DNA from: Thermoproteota archaeon
GTDB lineage: Archaea; Korarchaeota; Korarchaeia; Korarchaeales; Korarchaeaceae
NCBI GenBank assembly: GCA_027491395.1
Contig: JAOZFI010000043.1
Span: forward strand, 1 to 64,000
DNA: 64,000 bases
Direction of reading: 5' to 3'
Shown here: positions 6,450 through 34,952 of the stretch, in pieces
Layout: each line of letters begins with the position of its first letter
How positions within the stretch are numbered: the first letter of the stretch is position 1
The notes under the pieces: model-generated
Told to the model about the DNA's origin: nothing
What the model saw: the letters and a program-made list of their open reading frames with translations, nothing else
Databases searched by the model: none
Program-made: the position numbers and the translations under genes

Positions 6450-7655
6450 TTGAAGTCCATAGTGAGATCTGCTACACGCAGAGTTGAGGAGGAGGTAAGG
6501 GAGATCCCCCAAAAGGTCTCCCCAGAAGATTCTGCTCTGAAGGACTTCGTGGAGAGGGTTAAAGCTAGGATAGTAATAATGGGCGTGGGCGGGGCCGGGA
6601 GCAATACTATCACCAGACTGAACGCGATAGGTGTCGATTCCGTTGAGACGGTGGCCGCTAACACAGACGCCCAGCACCTCCTGACCACGATTGCCGATAG
6701 GAAATTCCTCCTAGGTAAAGAGCTATGTGGCGGGAACGGATCAGGTGGTGACCCACATATAGGTGAAGAGGCCGCTAGGGAGAGCATGGAGGAGCTGGAG
6801 CAGTTCCTCAGGGGCACCGACGTACTCTTCATAATGGCCGGACTGGGAGGAGGGACCGGCACAGGCGCCTCCCCTGTGATAGCTGAGGTCGGGAAGAGAG
6901 TAGGAGCCGTGGTGGTTTCCGTCGTTACACTACCATTCTCGGCAGAAGGAACCAAGAAGAAGGAGATAGCCATGAAGGGGCTTGCCAAACTGGCGGAATC
7001 CTCAGACACGATAGTGGTGGTTAACAACGACAGGATATTGGATATAGCAAAGGAGCTCCCTCTACATCAGGCGTTCTTCATCTCGGACGAAATCGTAGCT
7101 AGGGCCGTCAAGGGCATGGTCGAGCTTGTGATGAAGCCCGGTCTGATAAACGTAGACTTGGCCGACCTCAGGAATGTCTTGGAGAACGGGGGTCCGGCGG
7201 TTCTCTCATTTGGAGAGAGCGATGGGGAGAACAGAGCAATAGAGGCCGTTGAGGATGCTCTAGGCAACCCCCTACTCGAGGCTGATATCTCGGGTGGCAA
7301 AGCGGCCATCATAAACATCACTTCGGGGCCGGACTTCTCCCTCGAGGAGATGGAACAGATCGTGGAGACCATAGTGGGATCCTTGGACCCGACAGCCAAC
7401 GTCATATGGGGAGCTAGGATAGACGAGTCCCTAAAGGGAGTGGTCCAAGTCCTCTTGGTGGTCACCGGAGTAGCATCTCCCAGTGTTGAGGCTGCCCTCC
7501 AAGGTGAGATCACCGAGGCGACCACTGAGAGGGCCACTAGGGTAAGAGCAGAGAGACCCACGGCCCCGAGGAGAGTGGTCTCCGATAGGAGGACTGTACC
7601 TCTAGCCAGAGAGGTAAGGGGACCGGAAAGGGACTTAGGTCTGGATGAGTTGTGA
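6450..7655 (+). CDS. ftsZ: Cell division GTPase FtsZ (FtsZ1 type)
   Basis: Tubulin-like GTPase that assembles into the division ring. The 401 residues contain GVGGAGSNT (nucleotide loop, about 51-59), NTDAQHL, the tubulin signature GGGTGTGAS (about 137-145) and the T7 region NVDLADLRNV. The tail after about 340 is basic and variable. The start is TTG, preceded by GAAGGGG; TATA CTTTAAATAG lies near 6391-6401. It is followed by secE and nusG, the context usual for FtsZ1 in Euryarchaeota. A second FtsZ is at 23987. Confidence 0.95.
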   Translation: MKSIVRSATRRVEEEVREIPQKVSPEDSALKDFVERVKARIVIMGVGGAGSNTITRLNAIGVDSVETVAANTDAQHLLTTIADRKFLLGKELCGGNGSGGDPHIGEEAARESMEELEQFLRGTDVLFIMAGLGGGTGTGASPVIAEVGKRVGAVVVSVVTLPFSAEGTKKKEIAMKGLAKLAESSDTIVVVNNDRILDIAKELPLHQAFFISDEIVARAVKGMVELVMKPGLINVDLADLRNVLENGGPAVLSFGESDGENRAIEAVEDALGNPLLEADISGGKAAIINITSGPDFSLEEMEQIVETIVGSLDPTANVIWGARIDESLKGVVQVLLVVTGVASPSVEAALQGEITEATTERATRVRAERPTAPRRVVSDRRTVPLAREVRGPERDLGLDEL

Positions 7656-18405: not shown

Positions 18406-18677
18406 TTGCCCTTCCTCGGCGTCGATTTTACCCTCAGGAACAGTGCTCTGAGCGTGAGATACCACAGGTAGAGAGCTCCACCTAGAGCTAGGAAGCCAAC
18501 TACGACCTCTGTTAGGGCTATGAAGAGCCCCTTAGTCCCCAAAGTCGTGATCAGCACTTTAATCAAGAATAGTGACATCAAGATGAGTATCCATCCGGAT
18601 ATAACGCTATAGATGGCCAAGAGGAACCCCTTATCCACGATCTTCACCTCGGGGTGAGGAGGAAGAATGTAAGGCAT
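18384..18677 (-). CDS. Small two-helix membrane protein, unknown
   Basis: No family recognised. The 97 residues contain two hydrophobic segments, about 17-45 (FLLAIYSVISGWILILMSLF) and 50-75 (GLFIALTEVVVGFLALGGAL), and a basic C-terminus. The 5' end overlaps the GT4 gene by 34 bp, suggesting co-translation. The 3' end runs 19 bp into the antisense of tRNA-Ile. The membrane pattern and overlap support a real gene, but it has no other evidence. Confidence 0.55.
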   Translation of the reverse strand: MPYILPPHPEVKIVDKGFLLAIYSVISGWILILMSLFLIKVLITTLGTKGLFIALTEVVVGFLALGGALYLWYLTLRALFLRVKSTPRKGNGGPGGT

Positions 18678-19630
18678 GAAAGCAACCCTGAGATCAGTGA
18701 TATCACGACGACCTCCCTAACTATACGATGTTCAACTTTACCCTCATAACTCGTCAGTATGGCTATGAGGGAGATTGGTGCCTCTTTACTGGGATTCGCT
18801 CTTATGACCCCTCCTTCCACGATAACGGGCCGGACCCTTATATCCCTCCTCTCCAGCAATCCCCCTATCGAGGCCAGAATGGAGAAACCTGAAACCATGA
18901 ATGGGAGCAGCGACATAGCGAAGAAGGCCTCAGTGTTGGATATAGCCGCTACCGAGGCGAGAGCGGCCCCGACGAAGAGGGAATTGGAGTCACCACCAAA
19001 TACCCTAGCTGGATACCTGTTCCTTATGTAGTAGGGTATTAGGGATCCATACAGGGTGATGAGCGATAGCAGACCTGCGTGGCTGCCCAGTGCGATCAGT
19101 ACAGGCAATAAGGGCAGGGTAGAAGCGAAAACAGAGGAGGGCATCATCCCGTTGAGCGCATCCATCATGTTAACGCCATTGGAGAAAACAGTGAACATGG
19201 TGGCCAGCACGATCCAGTAGATGTAGTAAAGCCTCGCTCTACCCAGTATGGGCAAGTAGGGCCTAGGAACTATCTCTCCACTCACTGCTAATAGGAGGGC
19301 AGGCACGATCAGGAGTAGAGGTTTCGTCTTGGGACCTAGAGGGGAGAGATCATCAAGAAGTCCGATTAGGAAGGCCAACCCAGTTGAGGCGACAACCCCC
19401 TCAAGTGCTACGCTGCCAGCCAGATGCGATACGACCATCATAGATATAGCGAAGGACAAATAGACCGCGGGTCCCGCTGGCTCCGGGACCTTAGGTCTAC
19501 CCGGTTTGTGAACATCCTCTGAGACATATCCCCTGCTCACCAGTCTAGGGATCCAAGTCCGATGAAACAGCTCAGACGCGACGAGAGATAGCACCATCGC
19601 AAGTGCTGTTAGGGAGATCCAAGTTAGCAT
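18644..19630 (-). CDS. GT4 family phosphoglycosyltransferase (MraY/Alg7-like)
   Basis: Polytopic membrane enzyme that would transfer a sugar-1-phosphate from a UDP-sugar to a polyprenyl phosphate, starting an oligosaccharide lipid. Visible are the family motifs GLLDDLSPLGPKTK (DDxx), NGVNMMDALNGM, and YPARVFGGDSNSLFVGA. About ten hydrophobic segments. In archaea this family includes AglH, the first step of N-glycosylation. ATG at 19630 is chosen because a TATA box lies about 34 nt upstream; a GTG at 19657 lies too near that box. A divergent paralogue starts 38 bp away. Confidence 0.85.
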   Translation of the reverse strand: MLTWISLTALAMVLSLVASELFHRTWIPRLVSRGYVSEDVHKPGRPKVPEPAGPAVYLSFAISMMVVSHLAGSVALEGVVASTGLAFLIGLLDDLSPLGPKTKPLLLIVPALLLAVSGEIVPRPYLPILGRARLYYIYWIVLATMFTVFSNGVNMMDALNGMMPSSVFASTLPLLPVLIALGSHAGLLSLITLYGSLIPYYIRNRYPARVFGGDSNSLFVGAALASVAAISNTEAFFAMSLLPFMVSGFSILASIGGLLERRDIRVRPVIVEGGVIRANPSKEAPISLIAILTSYEGKVEHRIVREVVVISLISGLLSCLTFFLLTPR

Positions 19631-19668
19631 TTTTATCAATAGCCAACCCGTGAGCACCGGATAAAAAG
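19631..19668. promoter_or_regulatory. 38-bp divergent promoter of the GT4 pair
   Basis: The whole gap between the two ATGs holds two mirror-placed TATA boxes: TTTTTATC next to the left start, and GATAAAAAG next to the right start. Each lies about 34 nt from the gene on the far side. Each gene's TATA box therefore touches the start codon of the other gene. Confidence 0.6.
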
Positions 19669-20610
19669 ATGCTACCCGCTGATCCAGTCGTCAGCATCAT
19701 CGCCAGCTCATGTCTGATATTGTCAAGCTTTGCGGTCACCTACTTGCTCACCGGGGTTTGGGAGAAAATCTCTAGGAGGAGGAAACTCGTTTCGAAGGAT
19801 CTCCATAAACCTCGTGAACTGTGGGGAGTCAAAATAGGTGGATTACCAGCGGCATTCACCTTAATAGGGGTCTTGGCAGTGACCTCCCTGATCCCTTCAA
19901 TAGAAGCTTACCCTTTGATTACTGCTGCAGTCTTTTTTGCTTCAATGGGCCTTATAGACGACTTTATCGGCCTTAAAAATATGGAGAAGATCGTATTATC
20001 GGGGATACCTTTCCTCGTGTTCCACAGCTCACTGAAGCCATTCCCACCCTTCCACCAAGATCCACTCCTTCAAGTAGTTGCAGTTACCTTATTTGGAATC
20101 TATGTGACCAATGCCTTCAACACTCTGGCCGGATTCAACGGCCTCGAAGCAGGATCCTCCTTCATAATATACCTAGCGTTAGCGATCCTATTACTCGTAA
20201 GGGGTGATGCCTACGGGATTACCCTGCTGATCTCGGTGTCCATTATATTGGCCTTCCTCCCCTACAACTGGTATCCCGCCAAAGTGTTTCCTGGGAACAC
20301 TCTGACGTTCCTCTTAGGAGGATTCATAGGCTTCATTTCAGCTCAGAAGGGAGCTTACTGGCCTCTAATAATAATGACCATTCCTCACGGATTCGATTTC
20401 CTCCTAAAACTCATAAGTTGGGGGAGAACCGAGAAGAAGATCCCCACTAGGGTCGAACCTGATGGGACCCTGATCCCCCCACCGAACAAGTCTCTGGCAT
20501 GGTTTCTCATCAAAATAGGAGTTAACAAGGAGTATGAGCTGGTGAAAGCTATTCTCGGGATAGAGGCTGTGTTAGCTGCTCTCTCTGTCCTTATATACCT
20601 TCCAAGATAA
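19669..20610 (+). CDS. GT4 family phosphoglycosyltransferase paralogue
   Basis: Membrane enzyme of the same family as its divergent neighbour, 313 residues. Motifs are SMGLIDDFIGLKN, YVTNAFNTLAGFNGLEAG and YPAKVFPGNTLTFLLGG. The last motif has PGN where the neighbour has GGDSN, so the two differ at a likely active-site loop and may use different substrates. Closest in pattern to the UDP-GlcNAc dolichyl-phosphate transferase (Alg7/AglH) type. Its 3' end overlaps gcvPB on the other strand by 39 bp. Confidence 0.85.
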   Translation: MLPADPVVSIIASSCLILSSFAVTYLLTGVWEKISRRRKLVSKDLHKPRELWGVKIGGLPAAFTLIGVLAVTSLIPSIEAYPLITAAVFFASMGLIDDFIGLKNMEKIVLSGIPFLVFHSSLKPFPPFHQDPLLQVVAVTLFGIYVTNAFNTLAGFNGLEAGSSFIIYLALAILLLVRGDAYGITLLISVSIILAFLPYNWYPAKVFPGNTLTFLLGGFIGFISAQKGAYWPLIIMTIPHGFDFLLKLISWGRTEKKIPTRVEPDGTLIPPPNKSLAWFLIKIGVNKEYELVKAILGIEAVLAALSVLIYLPR

Positions 20611-23568: not shown

Positions 23569-23785
23569 AAGTTGCGAGTCATACCCTCTAGGTAATCTAA
23601 GTAGAAAGTCAATTTTAAGATGTGCCGAGCCATCTTCCTTCAATTTGCGCTACATTACTTGTTCGCGGTCCTGCTCTCGGAAAACATTGATTTGTTACTC
23701 TGAAAAGTGACATTACTATATAAAGGATTTATCAAAGAAATATTAACAATACTATTACCGTATACTATTCACCTAACTCAACCAT

Positions 23786-23806
23786 ACCTTAAGGTCACGT
23801 ATATTT
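23786..23806 (+). promoter_or_regulatory. Palindrome and TATA box of the RHH-ftsZ2 operon
   Basis: A perfect 10-bp palindrome ACCTTAAGGT (23786-23795) lies three bases before a TATA box GTATATTT (23799-23806). The TATA centre is about 24 nt before the RHH gene's ATG, so the mRNA is nearly leaderless. The palindrome covers the expected TFB-recognition (BRE) position and is a good candidate operator for repression. Confidence 0.5.
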
Positions 23807-23825
23807 CATTGATCTCGGTGGTATC

Positions 23826-23987
23826 ATGGTAGTAGTATCGTTCCATATACCTCACTCCCTTATGAGAGAACTGGAGAAACTGGTCCAAGAAGTCGGTTTC
23901 ACGAGCAAGAGCGAGGCCATAAGGGAGGCTATAAGACTCCTCATAAGGGAGTATAAGAGAAGGAACGCTGGAGGTGTGGCTTTCTGA
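23826..23987 (+). CDS. Ribbon-helix-helix regulator, CdrS-like
   Basis: A 53-residue protein beginning MVVVSFHIPHSLMRELEKLV, with a strand then two helices (SKSEAIREAIRLLIREYKRR). This is the whole CopG/Arc-type RHH fold, a dimeric DNA binder. Its stop overlaps the ftsZ2 start in a TGATG, so the two are translationally coupled. In haloarchaea a similar short RHH protein, CdrS, precedes ftsZ2 and controls division genes; equivalence here is inferred from size, fold and position. Confidence 0.85.
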   Translation: MVVVSFHIPHSLMRELEKLVQEVGFTSKSEAIREAIRLLIREYKRRNAGGVAF

Positions 23988-25213
23988 TGTTTGAGGGGAT
24001 GCAAGAGACCGGATCTCCCCAAGGAAGGGAGATGGTGGATCTCTTCAGGAGGATCTTTAATGGTCCAACCGACGATGAGTCCGGCATGCCGATGATGGAC
24101 GCCGCGAGGGCTATCGACTCCTTAGACACCCCGGTGAAGAGTGAGGACTACTCCGCCGGCAACATAGTCATAGTAGGGGTGGGAGGATGCGGCTCCAATA
24201 CCGTTCACAACCTGAATAAGTTGGGCGTCGAGGGAGTCAGACTCGTCGCTATAAACACAGACAAGGTACATTTGGATGGTGTAGAGGCTCCCCATAAGAT
24301 ACTTATAGGGGAAAACATAACCAACGGTCTGGGCGCAGGCGGAAGGCCGGAGGTGGCGAGAGCCTGCGCAGAGCAAGATTCCCACAAGATCTCGGATGCC
24401 TTGGGAAGCAGACCGGATTTGGTCTTCATAGCGGCGGGTATGGGAGGTGGAACCGGAACCGGTGCCGCCCCTATAGTAGCGAAGATAGCTAAGGACAAGG
24501 GGGCTAAGGTGATAGGATTCGTAACACTCCCCTTCAAGACCGAGGGGAGGCATAAATACAAGATAGCCCAAGAGGGAATAAGACAGCTTAGAAAATGGGC
24601 TGATACAGTCGTACTCATATCTAATGACAAGCTCCTGCATCTGGCTGGTGAGCTCCCGATAGATAAGGCCTTCGTAATGGCCGACTATACCCTCGCTATA
24701 ATGGTGAAGGGAATAGCCGAGATCATCAGGAAGAGGACCATGGTGAATGTGGATCTCAACGACATAAGGACGCTCATGTCCGCTGGAGGAGTGGCGGCTG
24801 TGGGGATAGGGGAATCCAGTGATCCTAAGAGGAGGGCAGAGGAGGCTGTCAAGATGGCCCTTAGGAACCAGCTGATAGAGATCTCCCCAGACGGGGCCAA
24901 GGGAGCCCTGGTAGTCGTATACGGAGGGAAGAACCTCAAACTCACTGAGGTCCACCAGATAACGGAGATAGTGGCATCTAGGATGTCCAGCGATGCCATA
25001 ATAAAGATAGGGGCCGATATGGACGAGCAGCTTGGGGACAGCGTGAGGGTGATACTCCTGCTGACGGGTATAAAGTCCCCCGATGTCCTTGGACCGGAGA
25101 GGATAGGGCAGATACAGCCCGTTATTAGCACTGGTATAACGGCAATGGACGGACAGTACGATCCTGTGAGCGTGATAGAGGATGCCTTAGGCAGAGCCTA
25201 CGTGCTCTATTGA
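23987..25213 (+). CDS. ftsZ: Cell division GTPase FtsZ (FtsZ2 type)
   Basis: Second FtsZ, 408 residues. It has a 55-residue extension before the GTPase core, then IVGVGGCGSNTVHNLNKLGV, NTDKVHL, the signature MGGGTGTGAAP and NVDLNDIRTL. It differs from the copy at 6450 in these loops (GVGGCG against GVGGAG). The RHH-coupled position matches haloarchaeal FtsZ2, which acts in constriction. The 3' end overlaps the convergent NAD-kinase-like gene by 7 bp. Confidence 0.95.
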   Translation: MFEGMQETGSPQGREMVDLFRRIFNGPTDDESGMPMMDAARAIDSLDTPVKSEDYSAGNIVIVGVGGCGSNTVHNLNKLGVEGVRLVAINTDKVHLDGVEAPHKILIGENITNGLGAGGRPEVARACAEQDSHKISDALGSRPDLVFIAAGMGGGTGTGAAPIVAKIAKDKGAKVIGFVTLPFKTEGRHKYKIAQEGIRQLRKWADTVVLISNDKLLHLAGELPIDKAFVMADYTLAIMVKGIAEIIRKRTMVNVDLNDIRTLMSAGGVAAVGIGESSDPKRRAEEAVKMALRNQLIEISPDGAKGALVVVYGGKNLKLTEVHQITEIVASRMSSDAIIKIGADMDEQLGDSVRVILLLTGIKSPDVLGPERIGQIQPVISTGITAMDGQYDPVSVIEDALGRAYVLY

Positions 25214-34547: not shown

Positions 34548-34952
34548 TTGGGTTTCTTCAGAAAGCTCTTCGGAAGGGGAGAGGAGGAGTACGAGGAAGA
34601 ATATCCCGAGGAGGGGTATGAGGAGGAGATTGAGTATGAAGATCTAGATTACGAGGTAGAACCGGCGAAGGCCAAAGTTCTAGCTGAGAAGGCGATCACT
34701 GTGAAGCCCATGAGTCTGAGAAACGCTGAGGATGTCGAGCAAGTTCTCAACGAGATAAGCGAGGGTAACATAATTCTTCTGAGATACGATGACTTGGCTG
34801 CTGAGGGTGAGGAGAAGCTGAGGTTCATCATACAGAGGCTGAAGGAAAGGGTTCTGGAGATGGGTGGGGACTTGGTGCTGATAAGGGACAGGGGCTATCC
34901 TCCCATACTGATAGTCCCTAGGTTCGTGGAGATATGGCGCAGTCCCGAGTGA
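34548..34952 (+). CDS. sepF: Archaeal SepF, FtsZ membrane anchor
   Basis: The N-terminus MGFFRKLFGR is a membrane-targeting amphipathic helix. A long acidic linker (about 12-40, rich in E and Y) follows, then a SepF core with KPMSLRNAEDVEQVLNEISE and GGDLVLIRDRGYPPILIVP. In other archaea SepF tethers FtsZ to the membrane and is essential. The TTG at 34548 is chosen because GTGGGGG lies seven nt before it and it places the helix at the very start; TATA CTTTAAATATG is near 34493-34503. 134 residues. Confidence 0.92.
   Translation: MGFFRKLFGRGEEEYEEEYPEEGYEEEIEYEDLDYEVEPAKAKVLAEKAITVKPMSLRNAEDVEQVLNEISEGNIILLRYDDLAAEGEEKLRFIIQRLKERVLEMGGDLVLIRDRGYPPILIVPRFVEIWRSPE

Follow-up and report, generated by a model that had tools for sequence, protein, structure and literature searches.

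A CdrS-like ribbon-helix-helix gene overlapping ftsZ2, with a candidate operator at its promoter, in a Korarchaeal archaeon

Introduction

How archaea control production of the division ring is understood for just a few model species. The aCcr1 protein of Sulfolobales, a ribbon-helix-helix (RHH) repressor of cdvA, is a small regulator that stands alone, with no ftsZ beside it, and acts on a division gene of the ESCRT type. In Haloarchaea, the short single-domain RHH_1 protein CdrS is encoded directly upstream of ftsZ2, almost without a gap (Darnell 2020; Liao 2021). Darnell 2020 (PMC7439475), whose survey took in Korarchaeota, reported cdrS with ftsZ2 from every archaeal clade other than DPANN. 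The same gene neighborhood across archaea is described by Pende et al. (Pende 2021, PMC8178401), who observed ftsZ2 "frequently with parD", an antitoxin name, and ftsZ1 next to genes of translation.

The locus considered here lies in a 64,000-nt stretch of Korarchaeal DNA (the window), which is part of contig C37 of a 1.7-Mb genome. A first-pass annotation of this stretch had noted a small RHH gene translationally coupled to ftsZ2, likened it to CdrS and read the layout as a sign of ancient division control. The observation proved correct and the interpretation partly right, being partly supported and largely published already; a candidate operator is the one new addition. The window protein resembles haloarchaeal CdrS in its short single RHH_1 domain and in its position immediately before ftsZ2, but differs in scoring far below the cut-off of the CdrS model, in having no CdrL gene upstream and in the presence of a conserved site at its own promoter. 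With aCcr1 it shares the small size and the putative role of an RHH regulator of a division gene; NikR, the nickel-responsive RHH regulator, has the nearest RHH core by both pairwise score and structure search.

Organization of the Gene Pair

The RHH gene (23826–23987, forward strand) encodes a 53-aa protein, MVVVSFHIPHSLMRELEKLVQEVGFTSKSEAIREAIRLLIREYKRRNAGGVAF, that matches PF01402 (RHH_1) with an E-value of 1.3e-9 and a score of 38.1 bits (cut-off 20.5). It is followed on the same strand by ftsZ2 (23987–25213), whose 408-aa product scores 337 bits against TIGR00065 (cut-off 295). The two genes overlap in a TGATG (23985–23989, forward strand) read directly from the sequence, with one base common to the RHH stop codon TGA (23985–23987) and the ftsZ2 start codon ATG (from 23987). 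The coordinates and the two model matches thus confirm that a 53-residue RHH gene ends in the TGATG that starts ftsZ2. Within the span originally assigned to the pair, 23786–25213, positions 23786–23825 form a leader with a GGTGGT Shine-Dalgarno sequence. As for the claimed translational coupling, the overlap is present, and the coupling itself is suggested by this overlap of stop and start codons.

Ribosome-binding signals accompany both genes. The Shine-Dalgarno-like GGTGGT of the RHH gene (23817–23822, forward strand) contains a GGTG that is invariant in 16 aligned genomes of the genus. That of ftsZ2, GGAGGTG (23970–23976, forward strand), lies inside the 3′ end of the RHH gene, 10 nt before the ATG, where it codes for Gly-Gly-Val. 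Each of the 16 genus members has either GGAGGTG or GGGGGTG at this place, some 10 nt ahead of the ftsZ2 start codon, and other genera have GGAGGTG, GGAGG or GAGGTGAT, with one exception (GGTGAGGT in G018). Given this conservation, the Gly-Gly-Val tail of the RHH protein would be most simply explained as the ribosome-binding site of ftsZ2. The 3′ end of the 16S rRNA, which bears on Shine-Dalgarno pairing, was not found in the assembly.

The fold pattern proposed for the small protein is borne out by the RHH_1 match and by an AlphaFold model built from an 8-sequence alignment, which predicts helices at residues 10–23 and 28–48 (pLDDT 85); the model covers the helix-helix part, the ribbon arising only in the dimer. 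A structure search with this model ranked NikR DNA-binding domains best (1q5v, TM 0.75), followed by ParD- and MazE-type RHHs, as for any RHH. Unlike NikR, the window protein ends after the RHH without a C-terminal metal-binding domain, and its gene is followed by ftsZ2.

Conservation in the Korarchaeal Family

Among 26 genomes sampled from the Korarchaeal class, a clear orthologue of this FtsZ was found in 23, all from the family of the window. In every one of these 23 genomes the RHH gene stands directly before ftsZ2, and in 22 of them the two genes share 1 nt (TGATG) or 4 nt at the stop and start codons; the exception is G021, whose ftsZ2 start lies 12 nt further on. Absence of the pair from related genomes, named beforehand as a finding that would speak against the proposal, is therefore not the case, and the layout goes beyond chance, considering that all 23 family genomes have the pair and 22 have the overlap. 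The divergently oriented gcvPA lies upstream of the pair in 23/23 genomes, and an NAD-kinase-like gene lies downstream of ftsZ2 in 13/23, the other stretches being perhaps too short or the gene different. The RHH sequence itself evolves fast even inside the family (G018 and G016).

In G026–G028, which belong to the same phylum at a greater distance, no RHH gene was seen upstream of the FtsZ2 gene, G027 offering only about 120 bp of upstream sequence, and the same is true of the divergent second FtsZ of G025. Tandem arrays of several divergent FtsZ/tubulin-like genes were also seen in six genomes, five of the genus and one from elsewhere in the family (G010 C1:900621-906130; G012 C1:840598-846104; G013 C7:13579-19074; G005 C48; G011 C54; G021 C34); the genome of the window has none.

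Distribution across Archaea

The pair was also found in Haloferax, Halobellus, another Halobacteriales genome, Methanocorpusculum, one Thermoplasmatota genome and one Bathyarchaeota genome, as well as in four further archaea of other families, whereas none of the bacterial ftsZ loci examined has an upstream RHH gene. In the phylum of the Bathyarchaeote, a homologue of the Bathyarchaeal RHH occurs in 106 of 151 genomes; among the best 30 RHH loci of that phylum, ftsZ follows the RHH gene directly in 21 and is missing from its side in nine. The pair is thus common to many Thermoproteota, Bathyarchaeota included. This distribution is mostly not new, since it extends rather than originates the published one (PMC7439475; PMC8178401). 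The same layout in Korarchaeota and its wide occurrence are therefore upheld, while the notion of an ancient control of division repeats a claim made in those two studies and is no new inference.

Two further observations concern the homologues in the Bathyarchaeote's phylum. In several loci (L235–L239 and L246–L248), an RHH closely related to the FtsZ2-linked one is kept together with its conserved promoter repeat and has no ftsZ beside it, its neighbor resembling a MiaB-type gene. In addition, aCcr1-like RHHs (L262–L281, especially L269–L272) constitute a second homologue group for the RHH linked to FtsZ2 in the Bathyarchaeote, and several genomes carry both.

Identity of the FtsZ and Other Division Genes in the Window

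Two FtsZ trees were built, of 125 and 128 proteins, with 20 and 34 RHH-linked FtsZ sequences, respectively. In both, all linked sequences fall outside the clade that unites haloarchaeal FtsZ1, the other FtsZ of the window and bacterial FtsZ. In the 128-protein tree this clade holds 66 sequences (SH-aLRT 99), none of which (0/66) has an upstream RHH gene; in this quick tree the FtsZ2 side forms a grade and not a supported clade. The gene at 23987–25213 is rightly named ftsZ2, because every RHH-linked FtsZ lies outside the FtsZ1-bacterial clade, which bears out the original assignment.

The FtsZ1 paralogue (6450–7655, forward strand; PF00091 and PF12327) falls into the FtsZ1 clade and has no RHH neighbor. 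It lies among Spt5- and ribosomal-protein-like ORFs (named by eye), in agreement with the published context of archaeal ftsZ1 beside translation genes (PMC8178401). A SepF protein, the probable membrane anchor of FtsZ, is encoded at 34548–34952 on the forward strand (PF04472, E-value 4.4e-7). The genes ftsZ1 (6450–7655), RHH-ftsZ2 (23826–25213) and sepF (34548–34952) all lie within 29 kb; the context of archaeal sepF is usually described as variable. The window also contains a head-to-head pair of Glycos_transf_4 genes (PF00953), 11 bp apart, at 18644–19657 on the reverse strand and 19669–20610 on the forward strand.

Relationship of the RHH Protein to CdrS

Sequence does not establish the window protein as the same CdrS. 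Its best NCBIfam match is aCcr1 (NF053762) at 30.7 bits, under the cut-off of 60, followed by NikR at 30.4 bits and by CdrS (NF058555, a haloarchaeal model) at 29.6 bits against a cut-off of 100. Pairwise scores of the RHH core outside the family are likewise highest for NikR domains, at up to 105, compared with 89 for aCcr1-like RHHs, 87 for antitoxin RHHs and 83 for FtsZ2-linked Euryarchaeal RHHs. In ten archaeal genomes that contain a linked RHH, the window RHH found the ftsZ2-linked one as its top match in only three, and NikR often came ahead of it, so that no clean orthology emerges from this best-match test. Group-HMM profile scores of the Korarchaeal RHHs were set aside, being biased by the diversity of the groups and by their choice.

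In an RHH tree of 49 columns, the non-Korarchaeal FtsZ2-linked RHHs come together with the aCcr1-like proteins (support 86–87), and the Korarchaeal RHHs lie outside this CdrS/aCcr1 group, beside three VapB-like RHHs. Constrained trees fit equally well, with p-AU values of 0.95 for Korarchaeal RHHs joined to CdrS/aCcr1, 0.92 for antitoxins and 0.97 for NikR, and a tree of this length cannot choose among the CdrS, NikR and antitoxin placements. The comparison with CdrS and other RHH families that had been proposed thus places the protein in the RHH family without grouping it specifically with CdrS, nor does it clearly cluster with toxin-antitoxin RHHs, given that the alternatives to its place beside the VapB-like proteins fit equally. 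Since sequence placement cannot decide, the protein is described here as CdrS-like, with common descent resting on synteny.

These results bear directly on an alternative in which the Korarchaeal family recruited an RHH gene to the ftsZ2 locus independently, or exchanged an earlier one for it, so that its product would function like CdrS without descending from it. The high core scores against NikR domains, the position of the Korarchaeal RHHs in the unconstrained tree and the FtsZ genes without an upstream RHH in G025–G028 would all be expected under such a history. On the other hand, the tree that joins Korarchaeal, CdrS and aCcr1 RHHs fits no worse than the unconstrained one, the RHH evolves rapidly within the family, and the Korarchaeal pair agrees with those of other archaea in the kind of gene, its position, its close spacing and the FtsZ paralogue concerned. 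Separate recruitment or replacement is regarded as somewhat unlikely.

A Candidate Operator at the RHH-ftsZ2 Promoter

Upstream of the pair lies a palindrome, TGTTACT-CTGAAA-AGTGACA (23693–23712, unstranded), which is conserved in the genus with a 7-6-7 architecture and is proposed as the operator of the RHH-ftsZ2 promoter. A TATA box, ATATAAA (23718–23724, forward strand), lies 5 bp beyond it, at a distance of 108 nt from the start codon of the RHH gene. Alignment of the upstream regions of 16 genus members gave the consensus TGTnACt-N6-aGTnACA, recognizable in 15 of them (four with A as the first base and G008 with one mismatch). The remaining genome, G002, keeps the gene pair but lacks this palindrome; at −97 it carries another one, likewise of 7-6-7 shape. 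The distance from the right end of the palindrome to the TATA box is 4–5 bp, or 3 bp in one genome, and across nine divergent genomes the half-sites are 92% pairwise identical, compared with 41–55% for the flanks. An independent symmetry scan also peaked at the palindrome (−133/−134), with 5.9 of 7 pairs matched against a median of 3.1, and showed a second, weaker peak 13 bp upstream, which might represent a third half-site. From TATA box to ATG (23718–23826 in the window), the distance stays at 108–110 nt in each of the 14 genus genomes where the site was located, although the leader sequence has diverged across the genus. Because gcvPA is a constant neighbor, rearrangement gives no indication of which gene the palindrome belongs to, and its assignment to the RHH gene depends on its proximity to the TATA box. 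No report of such a palindrome was found in the literature cited on the pairing, and the candidate operator is the new element of this analysis.

The strict pattern occurs exactly once per genome in 10 genus genomes, always at the RHH-ftsZ2 promoter; as it was derived from the same alignment, this uniqueness speaks to the regulon and not to significance. The size of the regulon matters for a second alternative, in which the RHH protein acts broadly, as CdrS does in Haloferax, with the palindrome as just one among numerous degenerate sites. Such a role has a precedent in the 18 sites of Haloferax CdrS (PMC8406309), would suit the tolerance of RHH proteins for variable half-sites and could account for a third half-site 13 bp upstream. 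It is opposed by a one-mismatch search of five genomes, in which sites showed no excess over a reversed-pattern control, and by the ftsZ1 and sepF promoters, which contain no site with up to two mismatches. A broad regulon is thus considered rather improbable.

In other Thermoproteota, too, RHH-ftsZ2 promoters have conserved repeats of their own next to the TATA box. Upstream of the RHH gene in the loci L249–L261 and L232–L248, these take the form of ATAC-N-GTATTAC in one group and CATGTTT..CATATTT in the other, as if the RHH protein of each lineage had its own operator. In L050 and L051 (G016 and G020), an inverted repeat, CCCGCGGG-N9-CCCGCGGG, flanks a TATA-like sequence that immediately precedes the RHH gene. 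Haloarchaeal cdrS promoters (L143, L148 and L141) contain repeated GTAAGAC/GTCTTAC palindromes, which CdrS or CdrL may bind.

Proposed Regulation of the Pair

Taken from the sequence evidence, a fairly probable reading is that the pair is a single operon, the Korarchaeal counterpart of the known cdrS-ftsZ2 locus, inherited as an ancestral pair and regulated by its own first product. The RHH protein would bind, probably as a pair of dimers, to the palindrome at 23693–23712 next to its own TATA box, and binding would set the amounts of both the RHH protein and FtsZ2. Translated from one mRNA, the two proteins would probably be made in a fixed ratio, as the overlap of stop and start codons and the position of the ftsZ2 Shine-Dalgarno sequence inside the RHH gene suggest. 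The wide synteny suggests that the pair goes back to an RHH-ftsZ2 pair of an ancestral archaeon.

The direction of regulation may be judged from the position of the site. If transcription starts about 25 nt downstream of the TATA box, near 23745, the middle of the palindrome (its tenth base) lies at about −44. In Haloferax, CdrS sites at CdrS-activated promoters lie at −41 to −50 (PMC8406309), and this similarity slightly favors activation over repression. The palindrome also abuts the region where TFB binds, an arrangement compatible with repression. Counting against the reading as a whole are an RHH core closer to NikR than to CdrS, scores far below the CdrS and aCcr1 cut-offs and the lack of the palindrome in G002; a regulator other than the RHH protein could also bind the palindrome. 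The ChIP-Seq sites of Haloferax CdrS do not include the cdrS promoter itself (PMC8406309), and the Halobacterium cdrS promoter is bound by CdrL (PMC7439475).

That the gene encodes instead an antitoxin-type RHH (VapB/ParD, the "parD" of Pende et al.) placed before ftsZ2 by chance is highly improbable and was rejected: the weak VapB and ParD matches (about 20 bits) are outscored by the aCcr1 and CdrS models, the proximity to three VapB-like RHHs comes from the short tree, the locus contains no toxin gene, ftsZ2 is the next gene in 23/23 genomes, and several genuine antitoxin RHHs of these and other archaeal genomes have a PIN or MazF-like gene directly after them.

Implications

With a candidate operator that is conserved and present in single copy in a deep TACK lineage, what was an argument from synteny can be tested by binding, for which a 53-aa protein and a 50-bp DNA suffice. 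Self-regulation, if true, would differ from the situation in Haloferax, where CdrS binds many promoters. More tentatively, a single ancestral RHH division regulator, located before ftsZ2 and regulating itself, may have become the aCcr1 of ESCRT-type division where ftsZ2 was lost. Such a history is on the doubtful side of possible; it draws on the grouping of non-Korarchaeal FtsZ2-linked RHHs with aCcr1-like RHHs, whose support of 86–87 is not decisive, and on some genomes near the Bathyarchaeal one that keep the RHH without an adjacent ftsZ2. If true, the link to aCcr1 would tie together the regulation of FtsZ-based and ESCRT-based division in archaea.
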